This document shows positions 4,093-56,074 of a stretch of DNA of 64,000 nt, piece by piece (within the stretch, counting starts at the first letter, position 1; each line of letters opens with the position of its first letter). The stretch spans positions 1-64,000 of the forward strand of contig CADCVF010000069.1 in assembly GCA_902806095.1 (NCBI GenBank), given 5' to 3'. The notes beneath the pieces were generated by a model. That model was given only the letters and a program-made list of their open reading frames with translations. It did not search any database and was not told the origin of the DNA. The translations under genes were made by a program, and so were the position numbers. The DNA is from an uncultured Rubrobacteraceae bacterium (GTDB lineage Bacteria > Actinomycetota > Rubrobacteria > Rubrobacterales > Rubrobacteraceae).

Positions 4093-4217
4093 CTCGCATC
4101 GAGAGCGGTGGAGGGAACTGGCCCCGAGAAACCGCGGCAACCCACGGGTAGCTGTGAGCTACTCCCGCAAGGTGCCAAATCCAGCAGGACGGTCATTACC
4201 GTCCTGGAAGATGTGAG
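4093..4217 (+). promoter_or_regulatory. SAM-I (S-box) riboswitch
   Basis: The leader carries the S-box core: GGTGGAGGGAACTGGCCC, then GAAACCGCGGCAACCC, then AAGGTGCCAAATCC. The closing helix P1 pairs CTCGCATC (4093-4100) with GATGTGAG (4210-4217). P3 is a hairpin around GGGTAGC and GCTACTCCC, and P4 is a perfect hairpin CAGGACGG/CCGTCCTG at about 4185-4206. SAM-I riboswitches turn off methionine and SAM genes when S-adenosylmethionine is abundant. Downstream, TTCTACG near 4235 can pair with CGTAGAA near 4260. No obvious U-tract terminator is seen, so control may act on translation. Confidence 0.93.
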
Positions 4218-4301: not shown

Positions 4302-8005
<3,704 letters not shown>

Positions 8006-11402: not shown

Positions 11403-14400
11403 TTGGCGGTTACGTCGGGCGGCGCTTTCGCGCACTTGCACTGTCATTCTGAGTATTCGATGCTCGACGGGGCGAGCCGCATCAGGGACCTCATCTCTTT
11501 TGCCAGGGATCAGGGGATGCCTGGGCTCGCGTTGACCGACCACGGTGTGATGTACGGCGCGGTCAAGTTCTACAAGGAGGCCAAAGACGCCGGCATAAAG
11601 CCCCTTGTGGGCTGCGAGGTCTACGTCACGGCCGACCGCAAAGATAGGAGCCGCGCACCTTATTACCACCTCACGCTCATCGCCAGGACCGCCGAGGGCT
11701 ACAGGAACCTTATGAAACTTTCGACCTGCGGGTTTCTGGAGGGCTTCTACTACAAGCCGCGGGTCGATATGGAGATGCTACGGAAGCACGGGCGGGGGAT
11801 CATTTGCCTCTCTGGCTGTCTTTCGGCGGAGGTGCCTACCAGGATACTGGAAGGGCGTCCCGATGAGGCGCGAAGCCTCCTGCTGGAGTATGCGGAGATT
11901 TTCGACGACGTATACCTGGAGCTGCAGGACCACGGCATCGAGCAGCAGCGGCGTGTCAACGAGGGTCTGGTGAAGTTACACAAAGAGACTGGCGTTCCGC
12001 TAGTCGCCGCCAATGATTCGCATTACACGACGAGGAACGATGCCAGGATGCACGACGTACTGCTCTGCATCGGGACAGGCAAGTTCTACAACGATCCGAA
12101 CAGGATGAAGTTCTCGGGCGAGGAGTTCTACGTCAAGACCGTAGAGGAGATGGCCAGGATCTTCCCCGACCATCCCGATGCGCTGGAGAACACGATCAAG
12201 GTCGTCGAGAGCGTCGAGGACGTCGGGATCGAGCTTGGCAAGACGCGCCTGCCGAACTTCCCCAAGCCGGAAGGGTACACCGCAGACCAGTATTTGAGGG
12301 AGCAGTGCGAGCGGGGACTGGTGACGCGCTACGGCGGAAGGGCGAAGAGCCGCGAGGTGCTGGGCAGGCTGGAGTTCGAGCTGGAGACTATCGGGAAGAT
12401 GGGCTTTGCGGACTACTTTCTTATCGTCTGGGACTTCGTCAAGTACGCCAAAGACAGGAAGATCGCGGTTGGTCCCGGCCGAGGATCTGCGGCCGGTTCC
12501 ATCGTTGCTTATGCGCTGGAGATCACGGACCTCGATCCCCTGGAATATTCTCTGCTCTTCGAGCGCTTTCTGAACCCTGACCGCATCAACATGCCAGATG
12601 TGGACATAGACTTCTCGGTCTCGGGGCGATCCGAAGTAATGCGCTACGTCACGGACAAGTACGGCGGCATCGAGCACGTAGCCCAGATCATCACTTTCGG
12701 GACCATCGGTGCGAAGGCGGCCATCAGGGACTCGGGGCGAATCTACCAGTATCCCTACTCGGACACGGATAAGCTAGCCAAGTTCATCCCGGAGAAGCCC
12801 GTCGGGACAACGCTCAAGGACGTGCTGCGCGCGGAGAACGGCTCCTATGTCGCAGGGGACAAACATCCCGGTCCTGCCCGCGAGATCATGCAGTTCGTAC
12901 AGCAGGATGAGGCCGCAAAGCGGGTACTCGACACCGCCTTCGAGATAGAGGGATTCGCCCGCCACGCGGGGACCCACGCCGCCGGCGTCGTCATCTCGGA
13001 GGAGCCGCTCACAGACATAGTGCCGCTTCAATTCACCAAGACCAGGGGAGCTTCAGTAGATGACGAAGAACTCCCCGTCATGGTCCAGCATCCCATGTCC
13101 GACGTGGAAGCGTTGGGGCTGCTCAAGGTAGATTTCCTCGGCCTGAGGAACCTCGATGTGATCGAAGAGACCCTCGAGACGATCCGGCGAGGCGGCGGTG
13201 AGGAGCCAGACATACGCTCGATCCCCCTGGACGACGAGAAGACCTTGAAGGTCTTCGCCAGGGGAGACACTTTCGGGGTCTTCCAGTTCGAGTCGAGTGG
13301 GATGCAGCGGATGCTCCAGGAGGTCAGGCCCGACCGCTTCGACGATCTCGTCGCCATGAACGCTCTCTACAGGCCCGGCCCGATGGACTACATCCCCACC
13401 TTCAAGCGCGGCAAGCACGACCCCGAGAGCGTCAAGTACCTGGACGAGCGACTAAAGCCGATCCTGGAGCCTACCTACGGCGTTGCCGCCTACCAGGAAC
13501 AGCTGATGGAGATCTCCAAGACTCTGGGAGGATTTACTCCGGGCGAGGCCGACACACTGCGCAAGGCCATAGGTAAGAAGAACGCGGCTATGCTGGCCAC
13601 GCTCAGGGACAAGTTCATGGCCGGTTGCGCGACGAGCGGCGTCTCTACGGAGGGTGCCGAGGAGCTGTGGAATTGGATGGAGAAGGCCGGAGGTTACTCT
13701 TTCAACAAGAGCCACAGCGCATGCTACTCGTTCCTGGCCTTCCAGACCGCCTACCTCAAGGCCCACTACCCCGAGGCGTACATGGCGGCCCTCATGAGCA
13801 GCGTGATGAACACCAAGGACAGGGTGCCCCAGTACGTCGCCGAGGCAAGGGCGATGAAGATACAGGTCCTCCCGCCGGATGTGAACGAGAGCGGGCGACG
13901 CTTTACTGTGGTTGGCGAGACCATCCGTTTCGGGCTCTCCGCCGTCAAGAACGTCGGGGACTCTTGCGTCGACTCGATCATCGCCGCTAGGGAGGAGGAC
14001 GGTCCCTTCGAGGACATCTTCGACTTCTGCGAGCGCGTCGACCCGAAGACCTACAACAAGCGTACGATCGAGTCGCTCATAAAGTGTGGCGCCTTCGACA
14101 ACGTCGGCCCATCGCGGGCCGCCATGGTCGAGGTCCACGCGAAGGCTGTCGAACGTTCTACCAGGGGCCTCAAGGGTGCGCACGAGGACCAGTTCTCGAT
14201 GTTCGATGCGGCCGAGCTCGCGCCGCCCAAGCCAGAGTTCCCGGAAGTCGAGGAAGACCAGCGCAGGAGCCTGGAGTGGGAGAAGGAGGCCCTTGGCCTC
14301 TACGTCTCCGATCACCCGCTGCGTCCCGTCTTGCACAAACTCAAGAAGCACACGGATACGACGGTCTCGGATCTCGAAGGTTGCAGGGATGGGGCCATCG

Positions 14401-14906
14401 TGTGGGTAGGGGGGCTGGCGACTTCGGTGCGAACCAACACGACGCGCAAGGGTGACATGATGGCCACGCTGCAGCTCGACGACACGCGGGGCTTCGCCGA
14501 GGTCATGGTCTTCCCGCGGGTCTACGCCAAATGCTCAGCGTGCGTGCGCGAGGATGCAGTCCTCAAGGTCAAGGGCAAAGTCGAGATGAAAGAAGGCATC
14601 CCGCGCATCGTGGCGCTGGAGATGGAGGAGTTGCACCTCGAGCCCGGGGCAGACCCCGTTTACCTCGACGCCGGCGCCTTCGTCGGCATCTCGCGGAAGG
14701 TCGCGCAGGAGGCGTTCGAGCTTCTGCGGCGGTATCCTGGCGAGAGCCCAGTCTTTCTCGTCTCCGGCACCGGCATGCTCGAGGAGAAGGTCGGTGCCAT
14801 CGCTGATACTTCCGACCTGCACGCCGAGCTCAAGCAACTCCTCGGAGCCAGATGTCTCACGTACACATCCCCCGCCGCCGAGCAGGAGATGGAGCAGGTA
14901 TCTTAG
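11403..14906 (+). CDS. dnaE: DNA polymerase III alpha subunit
   Basis: The replicative polymerase catalytic subunit, 1167 residues, the DnaE1 size. An N-terminal PHP domain begins with HLHCHSEYSMLDG. The polymerase active site includes GPGRGSAAGS near residue 358 and PDVDIDFS at about 398-405 with two catalytic Asp. FNKSHSACYSFLAFQTAYLKAH marks the fingers region, helix-hairpin-helix segments follow, and an OB fold lies near residue 1000 (IVWVGGLATSVR). Start TTG 11403 is supported by GGAGGAAGG immediately upstream and by the family N-terminus. Confidence 0.96.
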   Translation: MAVTSGGAFAHLHCHSEYSMLDGASRIRDLISFARDQGMPGLALTDHGVMYGAVKFYKEAKDAGIKPLVGCEVYVTADRKDRSRAPYYHLTLIARTAEGYRNLMKLSTCGFLEGFYYKPRVDMEMLRKHGRGIICLSGCLSAEVPTRILEGRPDEARSLLLEYAEIFDDVYLELQDHGIEQQRRVNEGLVKLHKETGVPLVAANDSHYTTRNDARMHDVLLCIGTGKFYNDPNRMKFSGEEFYVKTVEEMARIFPDHPDALENTIKVVESVEDVGIELGKTRLPNFPKPEGYTADQYLREQCERGLVTRYGGRAKSREVLGRLEFELETIGKMGFADYFLIVWDFVKYAKDRKIAVGPGRGSAAGSIVAYALEITDLDPLEYSLLFERFLNPDRINMPDVDIDFSVSGRSEVMRYVTDKYGGIEHVAQIITFGTIGAKAAIRDSGRIYQYPYSDTDKLAKFIPEKPVGTTLKDVLRAENGSYVAGDKHPGPAREIMQFVQQDEAAKRVLDTAFEIEGFARHAGTHAAGVVISEEPLTDIVPLQFTKTRGASVDDEELPVMVQHPMSDVEALGLLKVDFLGLRNLDVIEETLETIRRGGGEEPDIRSIPLDDEKTLKVFARGDTFGVFQFESSGMQRMLQEVRPDRFDDLVAMNALYRPGPMDYIPTFKRGKHDPESVKYLDERLKPILEPTYGVAAYQEQLMEISKTLGGFTPGEADTLRKAIGKKNAAMLATLRDKFMAGCATSGVSTEGAEELWNWMEKAGGYSFNKSHSACYSFLAFQTAYLKAHYPEAYMAALMSSVMNTKDRVPQYVAEARAMKIQVLPPDVNESGRRFTVVGETIRFGLSAVKNVGDSCVDSIIAAREEDGPFEDIFDFCERVDPKTYNKRTIESLIKCGAFDNVGPSRAAMVEVHAKAVERSTRGLKGAHEDQFSMFDAAELAPPKPEFPEVEEDQRRSLEWEKEALGLYVSDHPLRPVLHKLKKHTDTTVSDLEGCRDGAIVWVGGLATSVRTNTTRKGDMMATLQLDDTRGFAEVMVFPRVYAKCSACVREDAVLKVKGKVEMKEGIPRIVALEMEELHLEPGADPVYLDAGAFVGISRKVAQEAFELLRRYPGESPVFLVSGTGMLEEKVGAIADTSDLHAELKQLLGARCLTYTSPAAEQEMEQVS

Positions 14907-14907
14907 A

Positions 14908-14942
14908 GCATTTCAGCCGGTCAGCACTTCAGCATTTCAGTT
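14908..14942. repeat. Dispersed TCAGCA element, partial copy
   Basis: GCATTTCAGC, TCAGCACTTCAGCATTTCAG in tandem 8-base steps, directly after the dnaE stop. Only the left-orientation half is present; no TGCTGA half follows. Confidence 0.6.
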
Positions 14943-14997
14943 TGTTGTTCTCGCTCTTTGTTTCTCGTTCGTGGCCGAATGCGCGACTCGCGTAAGG

Positions 14998-15966
14998 TCA
15001 TAACGCTGTGGGCTGACCTCGATCCGGGGTGAGGGCGACGTACTCCCGCCTCCCTGCGAACCTCGCCCACCCTACCCTATCGAAGGCGGAGGCCATCGGT
15101 TCGTTGGCCACATCGGTGTCAGCCAGGAGGGGTTTGTCGTTGCCGTCTCTCTTTTGGGCCCCGAGAAGTGCTGCGGTACCGGCGGCGAGCAGGTCGTCTA
15201 CGTACCCCTGTCCTCGCATCCGGGGTACGACGCCGACGTAGAAGATGGTCAGGAAGCCTGGTGGCTCGGCCGGCATCACCAGGCCAACGAGCTCGCCGTC
15301 GGGTGTGAAAGCGAGCTGCCACCACGCGGGATCGTGCCTCACCCTGCGCGCGTCCTCGAAGAAATCGCGCGCCGCCCTTTGCTCCCCCAGCCTCTCGCGT
15401 TCACCCTGGATCTCACGGTCTAGCGTCCCTTCGGAGACCTCCCTCATCGCGTCGACGAACGCATCCTCACCGACCTCCTCCAGCGTGCGAAACGACAGAC
15501 GCCCGGGAACGGCGGGAGGCTCCCCTCCGCGCCACTCGAAACGCCCGGTGCCTCGACGGAAGGCGAACCCGACATCCTTCAGCAGTTCGACCCGCTTCTC
15601 CGGGTGGTGTTGGAACTGTGGCCGCATCGGCGGATCATCGACGACGTGCTCGATCTCCTCTGCGCCCAGAGCACGCGCCTCCTCCAACACGTCTTCGAGC
15701 AGGCGCGTGCCCACGCCCATATAGTCGCCCTCCCAGGGGACGTCAAGCAATACCAGGGCGAAGGGCTCCTCCATACCTGGCAGCGTCCAGAAGGCGACAC
15801 GTCCGAGGGGGCGATCTCCTTCCTCTTCGGCGACGAAGCACCACTCAGGGCGCATCGAGCCAGCGGCGAACATACTCTCCAGGTACTGCTCTACTTCTAT
15901 ACGTTGGTCGGGGGTGGCCCCGACGAAGAGGTCGAGATCGTCGGCACGTAAGGGACGAATGTGCAT
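14998..15966 (-). CDS. Tandem GNAT N-acetyltransferase
   Basis: A 322-residue protein with two GNAT-like halves. The first (about 1-150) begins MHIRPLRADDLDLF and contains GDYMGVGTRLLEDVLEEA, the acetyl-CoA pyrophosphate loop region. The second (about 155-322) contains FYVGVVPRMRGQGYVDDLLAAG, a canonical R-G-x-G-like loop, and ends with a D-R-V-G-W-A-R-F segment. GNAT proteins acetylate amines using acetyl-CoA; the substrate cannot be told. It is convergent with dnaE and separated from it by the partial repeat. Confidence 0.8.
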   Translation of the reverse strand: MHIRPLRADDLDLFVGATPDQRIEVEQYLESMFAAGSMRPEWCFVAEEEGDRPLGRVAFWTLPGMEEPFALVLLDVPWEGDYMGVGTRLLEDVLEEARALGAEEIEHVVDDPPMRPQFQHHPEKRVELLKDVGFAFRRGTGRFEWRGGEPPAVPGRLSFRTLEEVGEDAFVDAMREVSEGTLDREIQGERERLGEQRAARDFFEDARRVRHDPAWWQLAFTPDGELVGLVMPAEPPGFLTIFYVGVVPRMRGQGYVDDLLAAGTAALLGAQKRDGNDKPLLADTDVANEPMASAFDRVGWARFAGRREYVALTPDRGQPTAL

Positions 15967-16227
15967 CTATCTGGTCCTCCTGTTGCAGCGCGGTGGTGTG
16001 GCAAACAGCGGCCTGGAATCCGGACTGAGTGACCATGATGTATAGACGCACCGGCCGCCCGAAGGGGCTTGATCGCAGTATACGCGACCCGATCAGGCAC
16101 AGCCAGGAAGCGCGCCCTTGCTTAGCGAAGGTACGACCTAGATACTAGCTTCCCCGCTATCGCCCATTCGATACGCACGGTCGTGAGATCGGGCGAGAAT
16201 TGGAACAGGAAGTTTTGCCGCTTACTG

Positions 16228-16467
16228 TTACGGAGAGCCGCATGGCGTGAATGCGATGAGGCTCAGCGAGCCATCCTCTGTAACCTTGAGGTCCACGAAC
16301 CCGATTGTGACGCCGTCCTCGCGACTGACTTCGACGTCGAGCATTCGGCCATCGTCGTAGATAGTTGCTATGGTTCCCATTGTGCCGGCTTCGATCCCAA
16401 GTTCGGGGACGCTCTCGGGGATGGCGACCATCTCCAGCTCGCGGTATGTCGCGCTCGTCTTGGCCAT
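16228..16467 (-). CDS. DUF4926-like protein
   Basis: A 79-residue protein with the small beta-barrel pattern of DUF4926: an L-x-x-V/M-V-A-I-x-E segment, an E-A-G-T-M-G-T-I turn, then DDGRMLDVEVSREDG. It lies about 40 bases downstream of a DUF6883-like frame on the same strand. The two families occur together in other genomes as I recall them, which suggests a two-component module. Its molecular role is unknown. Confidence 0.65.
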   Translation of the reverse strand: MAKTSATYRELEMVAIPESVPELGIEAGTMGTIATIYDDGRMLDVEVSREDGVTIGFVDLKVTEDGSLSLIAFTPCGSP

Positions 16468-16507
16468 GGTGAGTCTATTTTAGCGCTTATAGACTCGGAC
16501 GGTCAGG

Positions 16508-16723
16508 TTACGGGACGCCGTGTGGGAGCGCGGTGGTGAGGTGGGGGAGGTCCCTGTCCGGATCGAGAGCCCAGGTGGTCAGCACCGGACTCACGTTACC
16601 GTTGGGTCCTCGAAAGTGCGGGATCACGAGTTCCCATCTGCGGAATGTCTTCGGTGGATCTCCTCTCCTCGTTACCGGCTCACGCTCTCGGGGACCCGCC
16701 TGCGGGAGTTGATCGCGGATCAA
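16508..16723 (-). CDS. DUF6883-like protein, probably N-terminally truncated
   Basis: The 71-residue frame has the typical C-terminal pattern of DUF6883 proteins: RRWELVIPHFRGPNGNV, then a V-L-T-T-W segment, then P-H-L-T-T-A near the end. Family members are about 110 residues and this one begins with a weak TTG at 16723. Reading upstream in the same frame continues plausibly for a few residues (RFARYLIRDQLP) and then meets TAG, so the gene may have lost its start. Same strand and directly upstream of the DUF4926-like gene. Confidence 0.45.
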   Translation of the reverse strand: MIRDQLPQAGPREREPVTRRGDPPKTFRRWELVIPHFRGPNGNVSPVLTTWALDPDRDLPHLTTALPHGVP

Positions 16724-16916
16724 ATATCGCGCGAACCGCTAGCAGTGGTCAATACTCGGCTACCTTCGCGCAGACTGAAACTTCCTGCAAAACCTGTACT
16801 TCTGAGCGATAGCAAGAGCACATCATTGTCTATAAGCAGATAGCGTCGCATGAGATCGCGCAAAATGCGCTGTAGGGGTCTCCGAACTGCTCACAGCTCT
16901 CCTAACCCCGCCCACG

Positions 16917-16941
16917 AAAAAGCCCCCGGCCGCCCGGGGGC
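16917..16941 (-). terminator. Rho-independent terminator for the PPOX gene
   Basis: On the minus strand the stem GCCCCCGGGCGGCCGGGGGC is followed by TTTTTCG. It lies about 30 bases past the stop codon of the gene at 16971-17375. Confidence 0.85.
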
Positions 16942-16970
16942 CGAACCGGTTATCGATGCCCGCGCTTTCC

Positions 16971-17375
16971 CTAATCTAGTCCTATCGCGTTGACCCTCTC
17001 GGGCGCTATCTTCAAGGTCACCCTCACCTCGTCGGGCTGGCGGTTCGGGTAGGAATCCACGTCCAGGTATTTCTTCGCCAGTTGATCTATCAGATCGTCC
17101 GCACCTTCGGTAGTTATGTCCACGACCCTCCCGCGAACCATCGCTATGCGCCAGGCGTCCGCGGTATCCACCACGTTGACCGCCACCCGCGGGTCGCGGC
17201 GCACATTGCGCTCCTTCTGCCTTCCCTCGGCCGTGTTGATAAGGATGTGCTCGCCGTCGGTGTCCACCCACACCTGGGTGATCTGGGGGGAGCCATCCGG
17301 CATGAGCGTGGATATCTGGCAGTAGGCCGGCTCGCTCAGGAGCTTCTCGAATCCGGGGGATATGGTGTCGGGCAT
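16971..17375 (-). CDS. PPOX-class F420-dependent oxidoreductase
   Basis: A 134-residue split-barrel flavin/deazaflavin-binding protein. Family features are YCQISTLMPDGSPQITQVWV, ILINTAEGRQKERNVRRDPRVAV, and MVRGRVVDIT. This pattern fits the F420-binding branch of the pyridoxamine-5-phosphate oxidase-like superfamily common in actinobacteria. It would reduce an unknown substrate with F420H2 in the cytosol. Start ATG 17375 has GAGGAGGGAAC just upstream. It has its own terminator. Confidence 0.87.
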   Translation of the reverse strand: MPDTISPGFEKLLSEPAYCQISTLMPDGSPQITQVWVDTDGEHILINTAEGRQKERNVRRDPRVAVNVVDTADAWRIAMVRGRVVDITTEGADDLIDQLAKKYLDVDSYPNRQPDEVRVTLKIAPERVNAIGLD

Positions 17376-17461
17376 TGTTCCCTCCTCTTGGCTTCAGGTG
17401 ACAAGCAGATACGCATAAGTATAAGCCGTTCACGTTCGTTGGCGAGTGCCCGATTGGGTCG

Positions 17462-17578
17462 CCCTCGCGCCTCAGGTTGGCCACGCAAAATAGTCGGCGA
17501 GACGACCACCCCTCCACCATGCGCAAGCTTGCCTCCGCCCTCGGCGTCGAGCCTTCCGAACTGGTCAGGGTGTCTTAG
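17462..17578 (+). pseudogene. Remnant of an XRE-type HTH regulator
   Basis: The frame ending at TAG 17576-17578 reads DDHPSTMRKLASALGVEPSE followed by LVRVS. This is the usual last helix of XRE-family regulators (pattern HPSTVRKLAxALGVEPxEL). Upstream residues SRR before it fit the end of the recognition-helix region only poorly, and no intact HTH precedes it. I read it as the 3' scrap of a lost gene. Confidence 0.45.
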
Positions 17579-17608
17579 TCACAGAAGATCGAGACGCGTC
17601 TTTGGCCC

Positions 17609-18461
17609 TTACGGTTCACCCTCGGCCCCACCACCCCACCTGAGCCTCCGTACTTCGCTCATCGGTGCCACCTTCGTGGTTCGCCCGAAGAGGTAGGGTA
17701 GCAGGACAGGGTCCGCCAGGTGCGGCACGGACGGCACGACCATTGTCAGCCGGGTGAGGAAATCGGCCAGGACGTCGTCCTCACTTAACTGTAAGAACCA
17801 ACCCGGCTCCGGCGGCTCGTCTTGCCTGAAGTAGTTGAAAGCCGGAAGCGGAAAATTGTGCAGTACCCCCACCCCATCGACGACTATGGCGTCGACCTGA
17901 TCCAAGGGGTCAATCTTGCGCTCGGCGTAGAAATCCATGACCTCTTCTATTGTGTCAAGGGGGTCCGCCTTTGCCTTCATCGCGAAGATGAAGTACGGCA
18001 CTCGGAGGGAATACTCGACCGCTGCTTTCCCTTCCCGCTCGGGCATAGCCAGGGTCGTTTCGGCCCTGCGCAGCTCCTTCACCGTCAATCCTTGCCACAA
18101 CCCCCCTGTACAGCGCGTACCTCTGAGATATGTCCGGCTTGACCTCGATCGCCGCATCTACGCCGTCGGCGAAGATCAGCTTGAAGTTCTCTCGGCGATC
18201 GATTGTGTACGGGTGCATTGGGTTGACCAAAATGCAATCCACCGAGTCCGACCTGCGACCGTACGAATCCACGATGCCGCCCTTGGCTACTCGGAATGGA
18301 AACGGGAAGTAGTTGCTCACGATGCCTTGCAAAGCCGTCTCCCTGAACGTTGCTATGTCCTGAGGAGTACCACGCCCCTGGATACTAGCTCTACCGAACT
18401 CCAGACGCAGTTCTTCCGCGTCGGTCCGAACTAGGGCGAACAAATCATCCATAGGTCGCAT
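17609..18461 (-). pseudogene. DUF6602-like (PD-(D/E)XK-type) gene split by a frameshift
   Basis: Two overlapping minus-strand frames form one protein. The first (from ATG 18461) contains DSVDCILVNP and DGVDAAIEVKPDIS, a D...ExK arrangement like nuclease-fold domains. The second continues from LWQGLTVKELRRAETTL through VEYSLRVPYFIFAMKAKADP to the stop at 17609. The join is at a run of six C (18101-18106, G6 on the coding strand): removing one G gives a continuous frame YRGLWQGLTVKEL. Joined length is about 283 residues. DUF6602 is the best family match I can name; its role is unknown. A sequencing error would look the same. Confidence 0.6.
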
Positions 18462-18559
18462 GATAGCCTACGAGTAACGGGAGGGCGATGTGACGCCCCA
18501 ACGTCGAGCTGTTCGGTTGTCGCCGGTACCTCACAACACCGTACCCACCTCCTTCCACG

Positions 18560-18584
18560 AAAAAGCCCCCGATCTCTCGGAGGC
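18560..18584 (-). terminator. Rho-independent terminator for the retropepsin gene
   Basis: On the minus strand GCCTCCGA-GAGA-TCGGGGGC is followed by TTTTTCG. It lies about 25 bases beyond the stop of the gene at 18609-18983. Confidence 0.8.
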
Positions 18585-18608
18585 CGAATTACCACAGTAT
18601 TGCTACCG

Positions 18609-18983
18609 CTATCTAGCTTTCGTCGACTTCCTAGCCCGAAACAGGACTTCGTTACGGTCGAAGTCTACGGTGACGTTGAACCTCTGCAAGAACGCGAGTC
18701 CGAGCAGCATGACCGGATTGAAACCGGCTCCCATTTGGTCCACAAGGATTGGCACCCCGTGCACCCTTGCGGTTCCTACCCTGATACGCTCCAAACGGTG
18801 GCGGTCCATCGTGCGCCACCCTCCGACGACACTTACCCGCTTCGTCCCCAGGCGGTTGCCCTTGTCGAAGCCCAGCAGCCGAGCCATGCGCCTCGGCACG
18901 ATGCAGTAGGTGGAGCCAGTATCCACTAACGCATCGACGTACTGCTCTCCGCCTATCACACCCAAAGCAACCTTGCGCACCAA
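18609..18983 (-). CDS. Retropepsin-like aspartic protease
   Basis: A 124-residue protein of the retroviral-type aspartic protease superfamily (clan AA). The catalytic motif is ALVDTGSTYCIVPRRMARLLG near residue 17-38, and the C-terminal LLGLAFLQRFNVTVDFDRNE is the conserved LG-x-x-F-L motif. Single-domain size implies it works as a dimer. Start ATG or GTG near 18983. It follows the small gene at 19055-19285 on the same strand by 71 bases and ends in its own terminator, so the two form a likely operon. Substrates of such bacterial proteins are not known. Confidence 0.85.
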   Translation of the reverse strand: MVRKVALGVIGGEQYVDALVDTGSTYCIVPRRMARLLGFDKGNRLGTKRVSVVGGWRTMDRHRLERIRVGTARVHGVPILVDQMGAGFNPVMLLGLAFLQRFNVTVDFDRNEVLFRARKSTKAR

Positions 18984-19054
18984 CAGGACCGATTCCGCCG
19001 CAGCGTTGGGGTCTATACCGACCTTACCGGGTATCGGCGAGGGGCAAACAAGTG

Positions 19055-19285
19055 CTACAAGGCGAAAGCCGGGAGTTTTTCGCCTTCGGCTAGAGCGTAG
19101 GTCAAATACAACGGGCCTTCCTCTACGCTACGAGGGTAAGCCCATTCCTCCAGTTCGGCATCTGCCGTCTCCGGGTCTTGGTGCGCCAGCAGCACGGTGC
19201 CTGTTTCGGCATCTGGACGATCGAGCCTGATAAGCAGCCACTTACCGGGGTGGCTCTCCCTTAGTTGTTCGAGTGTGCCGTGCAT
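19055..19285 (-). CDS. Small protein upstream of the retropepsin
   Basis: A 76-residue protein. The segment HPGKWLLIRLDRPDAETGTV followed by LLAHQD resembles DUF5678-like small domains (YPGKWVA... pattern), but the match is short. The C-terminal half is acidic. It is the first gene of a probable pair with the aspartic protease, whose partner or substrate it might be. A second short HLPGKWVLV-like stretch lies in the 100 bases upstream on the same strand, without a start, possibly a duplicate scrap. Confidence 0.55.
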   Translation of the reverse strand: MHGTLEQLRESHPGKWLLIRLDRPDAETGTVLLAHQDPETADAELEEWAYPRSVEEGPLYLTYALAEGEKLPAFAL

Positions 19286-19418
19286 TTGTGTCCTTGCCTT
19301 CCTCTAGCCCATCCTTGGACTAACAAGCACCCACTTCCCCGGCAGGTGCTACAGCAGATTATACGCGCAATTCGCTCCAAGGCGCTACCGTGTGGCTGCT
19401 GCGCAAGCGCGACGCCGC

Positions 19419-19958
19419 CTACACTTCTTCGAGCACGTCGCCGTAGCGGTTCGCTTGCGGTTTCGGGACCGTGCCTCTGACTTGCAAGAGCACCAGTCCG
19501 TCCTGGTAGAGGTGAGAATGTAGAGACGGGCCTATGGTCGGCATCTCCTCGATCTCCTTGTAGTAGTCGCGCATCACCTTCAGGTCGTCCTGAGACTCGT
19601 AGATAAACACCTGCGCCCCGTGGCCTTTTCCCTGGCCGGGAACATCGAAATGAGTACCCTCTTCGTAGGTCTTGGGTACGAGCGATTTCTCCCAACCATC
19701 TACCTGCCTGACCGGATAGGTTTCGCCCACCGGCAAGTCTTGATCCTCAAATGCCTGCACGATGGCTTCTGACGATGGTGTGCTGCCGCAGCCTACGCCC
19801 GTGCCCACGACAAGCTCCCCCATTGCTAGCAAGGTCAGAATCCGCCCCACGACAAGCTCCTCCCCAATCTCCTGATAGCAGCATTTACACATGCGGATAG
19901 CAGCTTGGCTATCTGGCTTGTGGGGCATCTGCTGTTTCCTATCAATAGAGGGGTTCAC
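19419..19958 (-). CDS. Putative lipoprotein-like protein coupled to tail genes
   Basis: The frame is 179 residues. Its GTG start shares a base with the TAG stop of the upstream gene (TAGTG), suggesting coupled translation. Residues about 42-60 (TLLAMGELVVGTGVGCGS) look like a lipoprotein signal with Cys in GVGC, so the mature protein may begin there and the first 40 residues, with a CKCC cluster, may be non-native. A 14-base piece, CCCACGACAAGCTC, occurs at 19804 and 19846 (42 bases apart), duplicating the ELVVG codons. The C-terminal part is soluble and unrecognised. Confidence 0.5.
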   Translation of the reverse strand: MNPSIDRKQQMPHKPDSQAAIRMCKCCYQEIGEELVVGRILTLLAMGELVVGTGVGCGSTPSSEAIVQAFEDQDLPVGETYPVRQVDGWEKSLVPKTYEEGTHFDVPGQGKGHGAQVFIYESQDDLKVMRDYYKEIEEMPTIGPSLHSHLYQDGLVLLQVRGTVPKPQANRYGDVLEEV

Positions 19959-20776
19959 TAGCGGGCCTGCACGGAGAAGGCGAAGTGCGGGGAGGTGCCC
20001 GCACCGTTGATGCCTACGACGCGCAGGATGACGTCGGCTTTTGCGGAGGCGTTCAGGTTGGCCCAGGAGCCGGCGTAGGTTGTCCCGCTCGTGCCGCCAA
20101 GCCCAACGGACGGACCCGCGGAGTGGTCGAGATAGTTCCAGGTAGACTCGTCGGTGGGATACTGGACGCGGAGTTCGGGCGAGAGGGCGGAAGCGGATCT
20201 GGTGACGAGGCGAAGGGAGATGCGGGCCTGGGTGACGTCAGTCAAGTCCACCACGCGGCGAAAGCTGATGCCGGTGGTTTGCGGGGGTCCGAACTCGGTT
20301 AGGGCGGTTGGCATGCCACTCCATAAGTGGACGCCGCCCCCCTGCCCGTCCATGATCGTAACGGGGATCAGAATGGAGCCCCCCCCGCCGCCACTCACCG
20401 CCTCATCAACCCAGTTGCCTGAAGAGGAGTCGTACACAAGCGCCTGGCCGTCGGAGGGCGAACTGATCGCCACGTCCCGCACGTCATCCACCGGCAGGTC
20501 GATACTCTCCGCTGTAATGTGCCAGTTGCTCCCATCGGAGACGAAGGTCAGACATTCGTTGGGGTAGCGGATGTTCCAGGGCGGAGCAGCCCCGTCTATG
20601 GTCTGTGAGGGGGTGGTCTGCACCGCCACGACGTTCGCCGAGGCATCGGTCTTCTTTGCAACGTACTCCTTGCCCGCCCTTCCGACCGCTGTAGGCAGCG
20701 TAAGCGTGCGCACGCCGCTTGAGGCGTTGACGAGGTAGGTCCTCTCGGCGGCATCGGCTGAGGTGTTGGCGCTCAC
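19958..20776 (-). CDS. Phage tail-fibre-like protein
   Basis: A 272-residue protein in the style of phage or prophage tail appendages. The N-terminal part contains RTYLVNASSGVRTLTLPTA and a W-N-I-R-Y-P-N-E-C segment with FVSDGSNWHI, followed by SPSDGQALVYDSSSGNWVDE and a Gly run. This 'LVYDSSSGNWV' pattern is common in tail fibres. The C-terminal domain is beta-rich (about 130 residues) and may bind a receptor or polysaccharide. The GTG start overlaps the TGA of the upstream tail-like gene (GTGA). No capsid, portal or integrase genes are nearby. Confidence 0.65.
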   Translation of the reverse strand: MSANTSADAAERTYLVNASSGVRTLTLPTAVGRAGKEYVAKKTDASANVVAVQTTPSQTIDGAAPPWNIRYPNECLTFVSDGSNWHITAESIDLPVDDVRDVAISSPSDGQALVYDSSSGNWVDEAVSGGGGGSILIPVTIMDGQGGGVHLWSGMPTALTEFGPPQTTGISFRRVVDLTDVTQARISLRLVTRSASALSPELRVQYPTDESTWNYLDHSAGPSVGLGGTSGTTYAGSWANLNASAKADVILRVVGINGAGTSPHFAFSVQAR

Positions 20777-21443
20777 TGACTCGGGGGGACTAAGTGGCCC
20801 GGTTCGTATTGATTTACGAAGTTCGTACCGTCGTAGAACAGGCCCTGCCTCGCCTCAGAGCTCGACACGGCGGCATCAGTAAGCTCGTCGAGGCTTTGCG
20901 CCCCCCGCCCGTTTCATCCGCACCACAAGAGACACCAAGTGTTACCGCTGCTCCAGAAGCTACTCCGTTCGAATCTACGGAGTGGACCCTGATATCGAGG
21001 TCATCACCCCGGGCGAAGGGGATCTCAAGCCCCGATAGAGTCTGCGAGACTGATCCCGTGGGGAACGTAATGGTCTGAACGTTCGCGCCGTTCTTCCGCA
21101 CCTGCAGGACGCTTGCGGAGCCCGTACCAGCGGTCTCGAGCCTCGCCTCTATATTCCTTACGGTGAACGGCGTCGTAACGGGCTGTCCATTCGAGTTACC
21201 TGCCGCAAGTACACCAGGGCGATGGAACGACACCTGTCCTAAGCCGCTATTCCTGTAGGCGACCTCCAGCGTAACCGAGGCGCCTGAGGCCACGCCGTTT
21301 GAGTCGGCGGAGTTGACCCGAATGGCGAAATCGCCGCCGCAAATCCGTAACCGACTGCAAGTTTGAGCCTACAGCGAACGTGATGGTCTGGACGTTCACG
21401 TCGTTCTTCAGGATGTGGATTACGCTCGAAGAGCCGGTGCCCG
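20773..21443 (-). pseudogene. Degenerate tail-fibre gene with a duplicated domain
   Basis: Minus-strand frames join into one gene. The second repeat reads VRKNGANVQTITFPTGS through GDDLDIRVHSVDSNGVASGA; the first reads IHILKNDVNVQTITFAVGS through DFAIRVNSADSNGVASGA, so a domain of about 95 residues is duplicated. The frame breaks near 21340 (first repeat) and at the C6 run 20901-20906, after which a third frame continues QSLDELTDAAVSSSEARQG to FYDGTNFVNQYEPGHLVPPS and TGA 20773-20775. The 5' end is missing: the homology stops at the CRISPR-like repeat at 21444. Confidence 0.65.
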
Positions 21444-21551
21444 GTTGCGCCCGGCCCTCGGGTCGGGCGAGGATTGGAACATCATCCAGAAGAGCACCGC
21501 CTCGGGTATAAGCAGTTGCGCCCGGCCTTCGGGTCTGGCGGGGATTGGAAC
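21444..21551 (+). CRISPR. Two-repeat CRISPR-like array
   Basis: Two 37-base repeats lie at 21444-21480 and 21515-21551, separated by a unique 34-base spacer. Both start GTTGCGCCCGGCC and end GGATTGGAAC; they match at 34 of 37 positions (differences at repeat positions 14, 22 and 27). Each has an internal hairpin CGCCCGGCC with GGTCGGGCG (fully paired in the first copy), and the 3' end resembles the common ATTGAAAC CRISPR end. No cas gene is in the window and no third clear repeat follows. Probably a relic or isolated mini-array; its strand is assigned from the repeat end. Confidence 0.65.
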
Positions 21552-21663
21552 TTCGCGGACGATGGACGGTGCCGCACGTTACCACCGGATTCAGGGGTTG
21601 CGTTGTGGCGCGGGCCGGGCGATGATGCAGGTTTCCCGGATCTAGAAGTGGAGGCTCGTAAAC

Positions 21664-22752
21664 GTGGCAGATAAGATCGTCTTTACCCGCGGGGTACCAC
21701 CGCCCGAGGCGTTCCCGACCGAGGAACTCGGGGCGTGTTTCGATGCGGCGGTCAGGGAGAATCCCGGCGTCGTGCTGCAGTACGGCCAGCAACCTGGCTA
21801 CGCGCCGCTGCGCGAGGAGCTGGCTAGAGAATACGGGGTCTCGCCACAAGAGATCCTGATCGGCAACGGCTCCTTGCAGTTGCAGGACCTCGTCTCGTCC
21901 TACCTCGTCAAAGCAGGGGCGGCGGTGTATACGGAGCAACCTAGCTACGACCGGGCGATCAAGACGTTCAGGCGCCGCGGGGCGCGCGCCGTCGGCATCC
22001 CGCTGGAAGAAGACGGGATCATTATCGAGCGGCTCGAGGCGGCGCTGAGACGCGAGGTCCCTGCATTCTTGTACCTCGTGCCTGACTTCCAGAACCCTGC
22101 GGGGGCGACCATTTCCCTGGAGAAGCGGCGGAGGGTCGTGGAACTTGCGGACGAATACGGCTTCTGGGTGATCGAAGACATCCCTTACCGCAAGCTGCGC
22201 TACGAGGGCGAGGATATTCCGCTGCTGCGGGAGATCGACCCCTCACACGTCATCACGATGAGCTCGTTCAGCAAGCTCCTCAGCCCTGGCATAAGGGTGG
22301 GGTTCATGATCTCACCCGAGAACCTCATAAACGAGGTGACTGCGCTTGGCGAGGACACGTACCTCTCGCCCGTACTCCCCACGCAGGCGGCGGTCGCCGA
22401 GTACCTGCGCCGCGGGCTTCTCGGGCCGAATATAGAGCGGTTGAAGGACCTCTACACACCGCGCTGGAAAACCATGTCAGGTGCGGTACGACGCGAGCTG
22501 CCCGGTGCCCAGGCGTTTATCCCTTCGGGTGGTTTCTTCGTGAGCGTGATGCTGCCCGAGGACGCCAATACGCAGAACCTCGCGGGCCGGGCAAAGGACA
22601 TCGGGCTCGTACTTACCCCAGGCGCGGCTTTCTTCGCAGATCCCGAGGAGGGGGAAAAGGCCGAAGGCGACAGGTTCGTGCGCCTGCCTTTCTGCGCCGT
22701 GACGCCAGAACAGATAGAAGAGGGCGTGAGGCGTCTAGCAAGCCTGGTTTAG
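21664..22752 (+). CDS. PLP-dependent aminotransferase (MocR/LysN-like, class I)
   Basis: A 362-residue fold-type I aminotransferase resembling 2-aminoadipate/multi-substrate transaminases without the GntR-type HTH domain. Motifs are YGQQPGYAPLREELA, GNGSLQLQD, PDFQNPAGATI, and the Schiff-base Lys in SSFSKLLSPGIRVGF near residue 202. It transfers amino groups between an amino acid and a 2-oxo acid; the substrate is not evident. Start GTG 21664. The stop is followed directly by a dispersed repeat. Confidence 0.88.
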   Translation: MADKIVFTRGVPPPEAFPTEELGACFDAAVRENPGVVLQYGQQPGYAPLREELAREYGVSPQEILIGNGSLQLQDLVSSYLVKAGAAVYTEQPSYDRAIKTFRRRGARAVGIPLEEDGIIIERLEAALRREVPAFLYLVPDFQNPAGATISLEKRRRVVELADEYGFWVIEDIPYRKLRYEGEDIPLLREIDPSHVITMSSFSKLLSPGIRVGFMISPENLINEVTALGEDTYLSPVLPTQAAVAEYLRRGLLGPNIERLKDLYTPRWKTMSGAVRRELPGAQAFIPSGGFFVSVMLPEDANTQNLAGRAKDIGLVLTPGAAFFADPEEGEKAEGDRFVRLPFCAVTPEQIEEGVRRLASLV

Positions 22753-23463: not shown

Positions 23464-24831
23464 ATGGACGAACATGTATCCCACGCGACCGAACATGCGG
23501 ATCTAAAACGCGGCATCGGTCCGTGGTTGCTGTTTTTCTTCGTCCTCGGCGACATCGTCGGGGCCGGGATCTACGCGCTGGTCGGCGAGGTCGGGGCCGT
23601 TATCGGAGGCGCGATCTGGGTCGCGTTTCTGTGTGCTTTTGTACTCGCGATCTTCACCGCGACCTCCTACGCCGAGCTTGTTACCAAGTATCCTCGGGCT
23701 GGCGGGTCAGCCACCTACGTCAACAACGCCTTTCAGAACTCGTTCGTGAGCTTTATGGTGGCCTTCGCCGTGGCGGCGGCCAGCCTCACTTCCGCGAGCG
23801 TTCTGAGCCTGGCCTTCTCCGGTGATTACCTCTTGCAGTTCATAAGCGTGCCGAGCGTTCTCGCCGCGCTCGTGTTCGTGGTGGTGATAGGGTTCATCAA
23901 CTTCTACGGCATCTCCGAGTCGGTCAGGCTCAACCTGATATTCACTTGCGTCGAGATCACAGGCCTGGTGCTTATAGTCGTGATCGGGTTCGTGGCACTC
24001 GGCTCAGGGACCGGCGAGCCGGCCAGGGCCTTCGAGTTCAAGGAGGGCGCGAGTATACTTCCGGCCATCCTGGCAGGAACGGTCCTTTCGTTCTACGCCC
24101 TGATCGGCTTCGACGACTCGGTCAACGTGGCCGAGGAGGTACGCCATCCCAGCCGGATCTACCCCCGCGCTATCTTCGGCGGGTTGCTCGCCGCCGGCGT
24201 CATCTACCTGCTCGTAACTTTCACCGCCTCGATGGTGGTTCCTACGGCCCAGCTCGCCGAGTCCAGTGGACCCCTGCTCGAGGTCGTAGAGAGAGCCCCT
24301 CTGGCGATCCCGACCCAACTGTTCGCACTCATAGCGCTCATAGCAGTCTCCAACGGGGCGCTTATCAACCTGATCATGGCCTCCAGGGTCATCTATGGCA
24401 TGGCAGACCAGGGTGTCTTGCCTGCTGTGTTCTCCAGGGTCCACCCGAACCGCCGTACACCCTGGGTCGCCATCCTCTTCGCCACCCTCGTGGTCTTCAC
24501 TCTCCTCGCCACTATCGGCCAGAACCCCACCGCGCTCGACACCCTCTCGACCACCACCGTGGTGCTCCTCCTCCTGGCGTTCATCATGGTGAATATCTCC
24601 GTCCTCGCGCTGCGGGGCGACGAGGTGGAGCACGAGCATTTCCACGCACCGAGCGTGTTCCCCATCCTTGGTATCGTTGTCTCGGCGGCACTCCTTGTAT
24701 ATACCGCTATAGACGACTGGACCGTCTTCGGACTGGCCGGACTGCTGCTTGGGATTGGCCTCGTCCTGTACGGCGTGAATGTCCTGGTGAAGAGGAGCCT
24801 GGACCGGCAACCTCCACAGGCAGGAGAGTAG
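23464..24831 (+). CDS. APC-family amino acid permease
   Basis: A 455-residue integral membrane transporter with about 12 helices. The family signature GDIVGAGIYALVGEVG lies in helix 1, followed by FTATSYAELVTKYPRAGGSA in helix 2 and the G-F-D-D-S-V-N-V-A-E-E segment near residue 215. Members exchange or symport amino acids or polyamines; the substrate is unknown. Start ATG 23464 follows GGGAGGTAGGG. Confidence 0.9.
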   Translation: MDEHVSHATEHADLKRGIGPWLLFFFVLGDIVGAGIYALVGEVGAVIGGAIWVAFLCAFVLAIFTATSYAELVTKYPRAGGSATYVNNAFQNSFVSFMVAFAVAAASLTSASVLSLAFSGDYLLQFISVPSVLAALVFVVVIGFINFYGISESVRLNLIFTCVEITGLVLIVVIGFVALGSGTGEPARAFEFKEGASILPAILAGTVLSFYALIGFDDSVNVAEEVRHPSRIYPRAIFGGLLAAGVIYLLVTFTASMVVPTAQLAESSGPLLEVVERAPLAIPTQLFALIALIAVSNGALINLIMASRVIYGMADQGVLPAVFSRVHPNRRTPWVAILFATLVVFTLLATIGQNPTALDTLSTTTVVLLLLAFIMVNISVLALRGDEVEHEHFHAPSVFPILGIVVSAALLVYTAIDDWTVFGLAGLLLGIGLVLYGVNVLVKRSLDRQPPQAGE

Positions 24832-24876: not shown

Positions 24877-26400
24877 TCAAACCTCATCCACGAAACCATA
24901 GAGCTCGCCGAACTTAGACTCCAGGTAGCGCAGATATGGGCCGGTCTCTGGGGGACGGCCTGTGGCACGTTCGATCAGGTCGTCTGGTTCGTACTTCTTC
25001 CCGTGGCAGTAGACGTTCTCTCGTAGCCACCCGAGGAGCGTGCCGAACTGGCCGCGCTCCATCTCGGGCAGGATCTCGGGCCGCCCTTCGACAGCGGCCT
25101 CGAATAGCTGGACGGAGAGTACGTTGCCTACTGAGTAGGAGGGGAAGTATCCGAAGTACCCGATGGCCCAATGGGTGTCTTGCAAGACACCTAGCGCGTC
25201 GTTCTCCGGGACGATGCCAAGGTACTCTTCCATCTTCGCGTTCCACGCTTCTGGGAGGTCGGCGACGGAGAGACCGTTCTCGAAGAGATCCACCTCGAGC
25301 TCGAAGCGCAGCAGGACGTGGAGGTCGTAGGTGAGCTCGTCAGCTTCCGTCCTTATCTCCGACGGTCTGACGGCGTTTACTGCCCTGTAGAACGTCTCGA
25401 TGTCGCCCGAGACGCCGGGGAATGCGTCCCGTAGCCTGGGATAGAAGTGGGACCAGAATGGCCTGGAGCGGGCGACCAGGTTCTCCCACAAACGCGACTG
25501 GGATTCGTGGACACCCATCGAGACGCCGCCGGCGAGAGGCGTGCGTGAGTAGGAGGGGTCCACACCCTGCTCGTAGAGGGCGTGGCCGGCCTCGTGGCAG
25601 GTGCCGAAGAGCCCTACCGGGAGCAGCCTAGGGTCGAAGCGGGTCGTGATCCTTACGTCACCGGGAGCGCCGAAGTTGACGCAGAACGGGTGGACTGCCC
25701 TGTCTTGGCGTCCCTTGCCCCAATCGTAGCCGAAGCTGGAGATAACATCGCGTCCGAACGCTTCCTGGGCCGCCTCGTCGAAGCAGCCCCTGAGTGGCGC
25801 GGTGCGGTCTTCCCCGAGCTTTGTGGAGATGTCGCGCACGAGCGGGACGATGCCCGCTTTCAGCTCTCTGAACATGCTTCGCAGTCGATGCGTGCTCGAG
25901 CCAGGGTCGTAGCGGTCGAGCATAGCATCGTATGGATGCTCGCCGTCCAGGTAGCTTGCCTCTTCCTGTTTGAGTGTCAGGACCCGCTCCATATGTGGTG
26001 CGAAAAGGGACCAGTCGGATTCGTCCCGCGCCTGGATCCAGGCCGGCTCGGCGAGCGCCGTTACGCGTGAGGTCTCGGCCACCAGGCGGGCCGGCAGCCT
26101 GCTCGCCCGCTCATACTCCCGCCTGGCGAGACGCAGGAGGGCGGCCTCGTCAGAGCCAGGCTCCCGCCCGCCAGCGTGTTCGAGGAGTTCTCCAGTCTTG
26201 GGCGAGACGAGCATCTCGTGGGCGAGACGGGCCAGGGTCGCGAGTTGCTCGGCGCGGCCCACGACGCCGCCCTCTGGCATGTACGTCTGCCTGTCCCACG
26301 CCAGTACCGAGGCGGCGGAGTAGACGTCGCTGATCGTCGCCAGGCGTTCTTCGAGTAGTCGAAAGGTGTCGTCCAGTCGGGCGGTACTCACACGCGCCAT
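24877..26400 (-). CDS. Carboxypeptidase M32 (Taq type)
   Basis: A 507-residue zinc metallocarboxypeptidase that removes C-terminal residues from peptides in the cytosol. Zinc ligands are in HEAGHALYEQG, with the downstream M32 motifs GVHESQSRLWENLV and, near the N-terminus, a long helical region. The SIGYFGYFPSY-like segment (WAIGYFGYFPSYSVGN) and DEL/TYDLH motifs match the family. Full length, ATG start. Confidence 0.93.
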   Translation of the reverse strand: MARVSTARLDDTFRLLEERLATISDVYSAASVLAWDRQTYMPEGGVVGRAEQLATLARLAHEMLVSPKTGELLEHAGGREPGSDEAALLRLARREYERASRLPARLVAETSRVTALAEPAWIQARDESDWSLFAPHMERVLTLKQEEASYLDGEHPYDAMLDRYDPGSSTHRLRSMFRELKAGIVPLVRDISTKLGEDRTAPLRGCFDEAAQEAFGRDVISSFGYDWGKGRQDRAVHPFCVNFGAPGDVRITTRFDPRLLPVGLFGTCHEAGHALYEQGVDPSYSRTPLAGGVSMGVHESQSRLWENLVARSRPFWSHFYPRLRDAFPGVSGDIETFYRAVNAVRPSEIRTEADELTYDLHVLLRFELEVDLFENGLSVADLPEAWNAKMEEYLGIVPENDALGVLQDTHWAIGYFGYFPSYSVGNVLSVQLFEAAVEGRPEILPEMERGQFGTLLGWLRENVYCHGKKYEPDDLIERATGRPPETGPYLRYLESKFGELYGFVDEV

Positions 26401-55513: not shown

Positions 55514-56074
55514 ATGAGAAGACTCATGGCAATAGAGTTGGTGTCGGTCGATGGCGTCATGGAGTCGCCGGGAGAGTGGGCTTTCTCATACTCTGACGAC
55601 GAGATGGAGCGAGAGAACGCGGCGGGGATGGACGCGTCAGACGCGTTGTTGCTGGGGAGGACGACGTACGAGGAGTTCGCCTCCTTCTGGCCCAACCAAC
55701 CGGGGGGCACGCAAATGGTGGACTACATAAACGGCGTGCAGAAATTGGTCGTCTCGGGGACGTTGGAGGAGTCCCTCGAGTGGAATAACTCGACCCTGAT
55801 CAAGGGTGACGTCGCGGAGGAAATAGCCAGGCTGAAACGGCAGCCCGGCAAGAACATTACGATCACGGGCAGCGTCACCCTAGTCCGGTCGCTGATACGA
55901 GCCAGGCTTCTCGACGAGCTTAGGCTCATGGTACATCCCGTGATTCTGGGCAACGGGAAGCGTCTCTTCGAGGACGGTGGACATCGGGAAGTTCTGGAAC
56001 TCGTAGACTCGAAGACCTTTGGCACAGGCGTCGTCTCTCTCACCTACCGGCCGTCGAGTGAACAGGGTTCTTAG
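55514..56074 (+). CDS. RibD C-terminal-like (dihydrofolate reductase family) protein
   Basis: A 186-residue NADPH-binding protein of the RibD C-terminal/DHFR-like superfamily. Motifs are the N-terminal ELVSVDGVMESPGEWAFSY, DALLLGRTTYEEFASFWP and KNITITGSVTLVRSLI. Probably a reductase of unknown substrate. ATG 55514 follows AAGGAGG; ATG 55526 is possible. The TAG stop coincides with the left end of the neighbouring insertion sequence (TA at 56072-56073). Confidence 0.82.
   Translation: MRRLMAIELVSVDGVMESPGEWAFSYSDDEMERENAAGMDASDALLLGRTTYEEFASFWPNQPGGTQMVDYINGVQKLVVSGTLEESLEWNNSTLIKGDVAEEIARLKRQPGKNITITGSVTLVRSLIRARLLDELRLMVHPVILGNGKRLFEDGGHREVLELVDSKTFGTGVVSLTYRPSSEQGS

Follow-up and report, generated by a model that had tools for sequence, protein, structure and literature searches.

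In an intact type I-C CRISPR array, transcription proceeds from the leader and Cas5c cuts at the hairpin of the repeat to give crRNAs, which are loaded on Cascade, the complex that recruits Cas3. Losses of CRISPR-Cas systems of the kind considered here are ordinary.

Isolated or orphan arrays, which have no nearby cas genes, are the closest described parallel to the locus analyzed here, and that they are remnants of lost systems is one of the explanations given in the relevant part of PMC5294841. A second parallel is provided by CreR, a crRNA-like cas autorepressor of repeat-spacer-repeat form, which the portion of PMC12737573 on this subject describes as widely distributed in type I systems. 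Our search for literature combining Rubrobacter, CRISPR and type I-C found no paper; a broader literature on CRISPR in Rubrobacter exists.

We analyzed a repeat pair in a stretch of 64,000 nucleotides from an uncultured Rubrobacteraceae bacterium (hereafter the window). We consider it about 90% probable that the pair is an inert, leader-distal stub of a type I-C system that was lost from between dnaE and a block of aminotransferase, permease and M32 peptidase genes. Like the orphan arrays, it is an array without nearby cas genes; unlike them, as far as that part of PMC5294841 describes them, it has a synteny with relatives that tells both the lost subtype and the former position of the cas genes. 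It shares the 37-base repeat and the spacer-length class with the type I-C systems of other Rubrobacteraceae (genomes G013, G018, G019, G030, G037 and G038), and the chromosomal neighbourhood with most of them; however, those systems have cas genes and a leader, whereas the window lacks both and retains two repeats plus one decayed copy. The features of the locus are as follows.

11403 to 14906, + strand: dnaE (DNA polymerase III alpha, named by eye), which borders the type I-C operon in relatives
14907 to 21443: stretch in place of the cas operon and leader, or of the short gap, of relatives; no detectable cas homology
16170 to 16206, + strand: decayed third repeat, on the dnaE side of the pair, mismatching the family consensus at 9 of 37 bases
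19961 to 21441, - strand: broken phage-tail-like gene or genes with internal repeats, matching PHROG tail families (E 1e-4 to 1e-5)
21407 to 21443, + strand: TTC plus the 34 bases up to repeat 1, a hypothetical PAM and protospacer inside the tail-like gene
21444 to 21480, + strand: CRISPR repeat 1, differing from the family consensus by one base, which lies in the hairpin loop
21481 to 21514, + strand: single 34-base spacer between repeats 1 and 2, no protospacer found
21515 to 21551, + strand: CRISPR repeat 2, two bases off the consensus, one stem pair broken
21664 to 22752, + strand: PLP aminotransferase (named by eye), a syntenic marker that adjoins repeats in relatives
23464 to 24831, + strand: amino-acid permease (named by eye), a syntenic marker
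24877 to 26400, - strand: M32-type carboxypeptidase (named by eye), a syntenic marker that adjoins the arrays of G038 and G019

Repeat copies in the genome

The two 37-base repeats, identical at 34 of 37 positions, and the unique 34-base spacer of the original prediction were all recovered. The repeats start 71 bases apart, and the array consists of just these units: two regularly spaced repeats and one spacer. A covariance model trained on 11 variants of the repeat, repeats 1 and 2 among them, gave these two E = 2e-12 and 2e-11 in the 3.83 Mb genome. The third repeat, which was left out of model building, lies 5.2 kb from the pair on the same strand and scored E = 0.005 over the whole genome (E = 0.0005 over 387 kb), while the best place outside the interval from dnaE to the pair reached E = 0.54. 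The genome thus has three convincing copies, all within 5.4 kb, and the two-repeat array that had been called isolated is real but is accompanied by a decayed third repeat. A dispersed non-CRISPR repeat, the outcome named beforehand as speaking against an array, was ruled out by these three copies in a single interval. A chance repeat was ruled out by the genome-wide covariance-model E-values and by shuffle counts: three single-strand mononucleotide shuffles of the window gave no place with 11 or fewer mismatches. The two repeats of the pair are genuine CRISPR repeats.

A 9-pair hairpin is predicted for the consensus and for repeat 1, each folded alone. Selection on structure had been proposed to explain the perfect stem of repeat 1; that proposal is not supported, because repeat 1 departs from the consensus by a single loop base and so is simply the near-canonical form. 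The decay sits in repeat 2, where G22T breaks a stem pair. The leader-distal terminal repeats of the G030 and G038 arrays are also degenerate, and the broken pair of repeat 2 fits such a terminal place. Repeat 2 is therefore probably the leader-distal terminal repeat, and the best reading of the pair is that it comprises the two repeats farthest from the leader, with the oldest spacer between them.

The spacer is of ordinary length, within the 33 to 39 bases of the spacers of relatives (n = 143, with 25 of them 34 long), and its target was searched for widely. Phages and plasmids gave partial matches only, none covering 80% of the query, and the 39 family genomes had no protospacer with up to three mismatches. 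In IMG/VR, the first 18 bases occurred at 26 places (at best 25 of 34 bases matched) and the last 18 bases at none. Conversely, the 143 spacers of relatives, compared with the loci fetched, had no convincing target in the window, the one match being of 16 bases at 55623.

Type I-C systems and decayed arrays in related genomes

A degenerate pattern (at most two mismatches) located the same repeat in 9 of 39 family genomes. Copy numbers are highest in G030 (22) and G038 (15), followed by G019 and G031 (8 each). A relaxed scan gave 38 repeat units in G019 and at least 62 in G018, a genome that the degenerate pattern had missed. The arrays of relatives adjoin operons of the order cas3-cas5-cas8-cas7-cas4-cas1; for the G031 array, no cas gene was seen within 12 kb beside it. 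NCBIfam subtype models were applied to the proteins of G038 and to the Cas8c of G013. They identified the G038 proteins as type I-C (Cas1c, Cas7/Csd2, Cas8c/Csd1 and Cas5c, with Cas3 and Cas4 matching general models) and the G013 protein as Csd1. Repeats 1 and 2 differ by one and two of 37 bases, respectively, from the repeat of G030, which is linked to type I-C because the cas genes of G030 match those of G038. Cas8c is present in 8 of the 39 family genomes.

Upstream of the type I-C operon we found dnaE in five loci (G013, G018, G030 contig C158, G037 and G038). The operon of G019 has no dnaE within 10 kb, and in G015, G016 and the second G030 operon that side is unreadable, as the contigs end too early. 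In G013, contig C157 carries dnaE, terC, one repeat and cas3 to cas1, and contig C235 carries the end of cas1, a cas2-like stretch (by eye), one repeat, and then the aminotransferase, permease and M32 peptidase genes; we infer that the two contigs join across the break. The order in the window runs from dnaE through the decayed repeat, a stretch of 5.2 kb and the repeat pair to the aminotransferase, permease and M32 peptidase genes; gene order and strands equal those of G013, with the cas operon gone.

Orthologues of the aminotransferase (at least 71% identity) occur in 17 of the 39 genomes. Repeats stand ahead of it not only in the window but also in G013, G002, G036 and G034. Those of the last three genomes are decayed (three, one and two repeats, respectively), and Cas8c was found in none of them; G034 has a distant Cas3-like match (33% identity). 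The decayed array of G002 (contig C510, 430-1127, L035) contains two small genes between its second and third repeats, HicB/HicA-like by eye, with no NCBIfam match at 1e-5. Eight other genomes (G006, G007, G008, G014, G015, G016, G017 and G028) have dnaE next to the aminotransferase, and no repeat was found between the two. The nearest of these by aminotransferase identity (91%) is G007; its gap is of about 420 bases, and compared with it the extra sequence of the window runs from the end of dnaE to about 21594. The aminotransferase of G038 is located elsewhere, so that the right border is not uniform among relatives.

A lone near-canonical repeat is found in another neighbourhood in G010 (contig C126, 10024-10060, - strand, L038), no cas gene having been found near it; by eye, it appears to break up a DsbA/FrnE-like gene. 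Among the nine genomes of the genus, Cas1 was found only in G001 (L040 and L041), where NCBIfam assigns it to type I-B; the genus thus has at least one other CRISPR type.

The interval between dnaE and the repeat pair

The original prediction saw no cas genes, and tblastn with 17 Cas queries agreed, giving no cas homology within the window at E up to 1e-3. The same queries found no decayed cas pseudogenes in 14907-21443. Extending the search for cas genes and other arrays to the genome, a 98.6% complete assembly, added no repeat copy beyond the three in their one interval and no match to Cas1, Cas3, Cas8c or the type III RAMP family; Cas5c and Cas7 were looked for in the window. A leader sequence is common to six intact arrays of relatives; searched for upstream of both repeat 1 and the decayed repeat, and across 14900-21660, it gave no convincing match (best E 0.04 and 0.16).

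The - strand of 14907-21443 carries GNAT, PNPOx, DUF6602 and aspartyl-protease genes together with the tail-like fragments, and parts of the stretch match other places in relatives. Directly after dnaE, 14907-14955 is a short dispersed repeat, with several copies at 86-97% identity in the genome and in relatives. Further upstream, on the other side of dnaE, a SAM riboswitch lies at 4093-4217 (+ strand; Rfam RF00162, 83 bits).

Repeat identity, synteny and the lack of both the leader and the cas genes looked for are direct observations; taken together, they strongly support the view that the pair is a remnant array. An ancestor of the species would have had a type I-C array between dnaE and the aminotransferase-permease-M32 block, the operon having stood at this site in the lineage of the window itself and not only in its relatives. 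The cas3-cas5c-cas8c-cas7-cas4-cas1-cas2 operon, the leader and the leader-near repeats would then have been lost, and the interval would have become filled with a mixture of degraded genes, some phage-like and others host-like, although this order of loss and insertion is conjectural. With no leader, no Cas proteins found and one spacer, what remains most likely does nothing and is drifting. The third repeat, in the right interval and on the right strand, and the decayed repeats ahead of the aminotransferase in G002, G036 and G034 support the loss of a type I-C system. On the other hand, the third repeat is weak taken alone (E = 0.005 genome-wide), the right border varies (as in G038), and Cas8c was found in none of the other eight genomes of the genus, four of which are less than 90% complete. 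Further, given the eight relatives with no repeat in the gap and the short gap of G007, repeated loss, or gain and loss, is needed.

Read as a lost type I-C system, the locus would exemplify CRISPR-Cas loss clearly, with relatives revealing where the system stood, which subtype it belonged to and how it was oriented. The site downstream of dnaE appears to be one where type I-C systems recur and decay in Rubrobacteraceae, and the decayed repeats at the equal site in other genomes would make rates and routes of CRISPR loss measurable.

Other readings of the locus

The tail-like gene is likely of phage origin, judging from its PHROG matches, which are weak; its proteins had no relatives in phages or IMG/VR, and the other family genomes gave one weak match (G009, E 1e-3). 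It had been described as stopping exactly at the first repeat. The gene does meet repeat 1, but its internal homology ends at 21441, two bases short, and, as it reads on the - strand, it is its truncated upstream (N-terminal) side that abuts the repeat. That contact suggests that the array might have been broken when one of its spacers recombined with the matching protospacer in an infecting phage, joining phage DNA to repeat 1 exactly at the end of the spacer; the 34 bases before repeat 1 would be the old protospacer with its PAM still in place, and the host would have lost the cas operon. A TTC lies exactly 34 bases upstream of repeat 1, a distance equal to the length of the neighbouring spacer, and TTC is the PAM reported for type I-C of Xanthomonas in the part of PMC8406640 that concerns it. 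If true, this would be a route by which phages dismantle an array that targets them. However, a TTC at any spacer-length distance (33 to 39 bases) has an 11% chance of occurring. Besides, one crossover should have placed a copy of these 34 bases behind the left repeat too, and the ungapped comparison gave 12 of 34 (p = 0.17). Gapped comparisons of the same pair gave p = 0.007-0.07 depending on the scheme, and the match takes several indels while the adjoining repeat has none; an initial test was more favourable (p = 0.0008-0.003), but its gap costs had been chosen once the data had been inspected. Nor was a relative of the tail proteins found in phages or IMG/VR. We regard such recombination as very improbable. 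The related suggestion that the array was the target of a tail-gene insertion may fit the junction, which is within three bases of the repeat boundary, but the predicted second copy of the spacer at the left border is not convincingly there.

The pair might instead be a functional guide. A stand-alone mini-array whose Cas proteins are supplied in trans from other loci of the cell, as had been suggested, would accord with the near-canonical repeat 1, its perfect hairpin and the normal spacer length, and the Cas proteins could sit on a plasmid outside the assembly. Nevertheless, the leader of the six intact arrays is missing, and the lack of any Cas1, Cas3, Cas8c or RAMP match in so complete an assembly (Cas9, Cas12 and Cas10 lay outside the direct search) makes this very improbable. 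Two repeats around one spacer are also the minimal form of the CreR- and CreA-like regulatory guides, which provide no immunity, and such an element seems to occur in the family (see below). The window pair shares the repeat-spacer-repeat form with CreR as described in the consulted portion of PMC12737573, but it is found at the far, array end of the former operon and lacks a promoter target, whereas the CreR-like element of G037 lies on the cas3 side. Its spacer, tested as a seed from 21481, matched nearby targets no better than chance (p = 0.40), as did the sequence after 16206 (best match p = 0.42), and the genome-wide search found no Cas8c, the Cascade protein, to bind it. A regulatory role for the pair is thus hardly credible, and the leader-distal stub of a lost type I-C system is the reading we prefer.

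The element of G037 (contig C43, about 7320-7428, L099) is a degenerate repeat-spacer-repeat directly upstream of a type I-C cas3: the degenerate repeat ends at about 7361, the second repeat spans 7398-7428, and cas3 homology starts at 7473. Positions 6 and 12 of a guide are those flipped out in Cascade. The first 16 bases of the G037 spacer match an upstream site at about 7287-7302, which is preceded by TTC, with mismatches at positions 1, 6 and 12; leaving aside positions 6 and 12, 13 of 14 positions are matched. The same test, run on seven further seeds (two from the window), turned up nothing above chance. For the G037 seed, a match first spotted by eye, none of 200 shuffles scored as high, and we consider this element a convincing CreR-like autorepressor guide.
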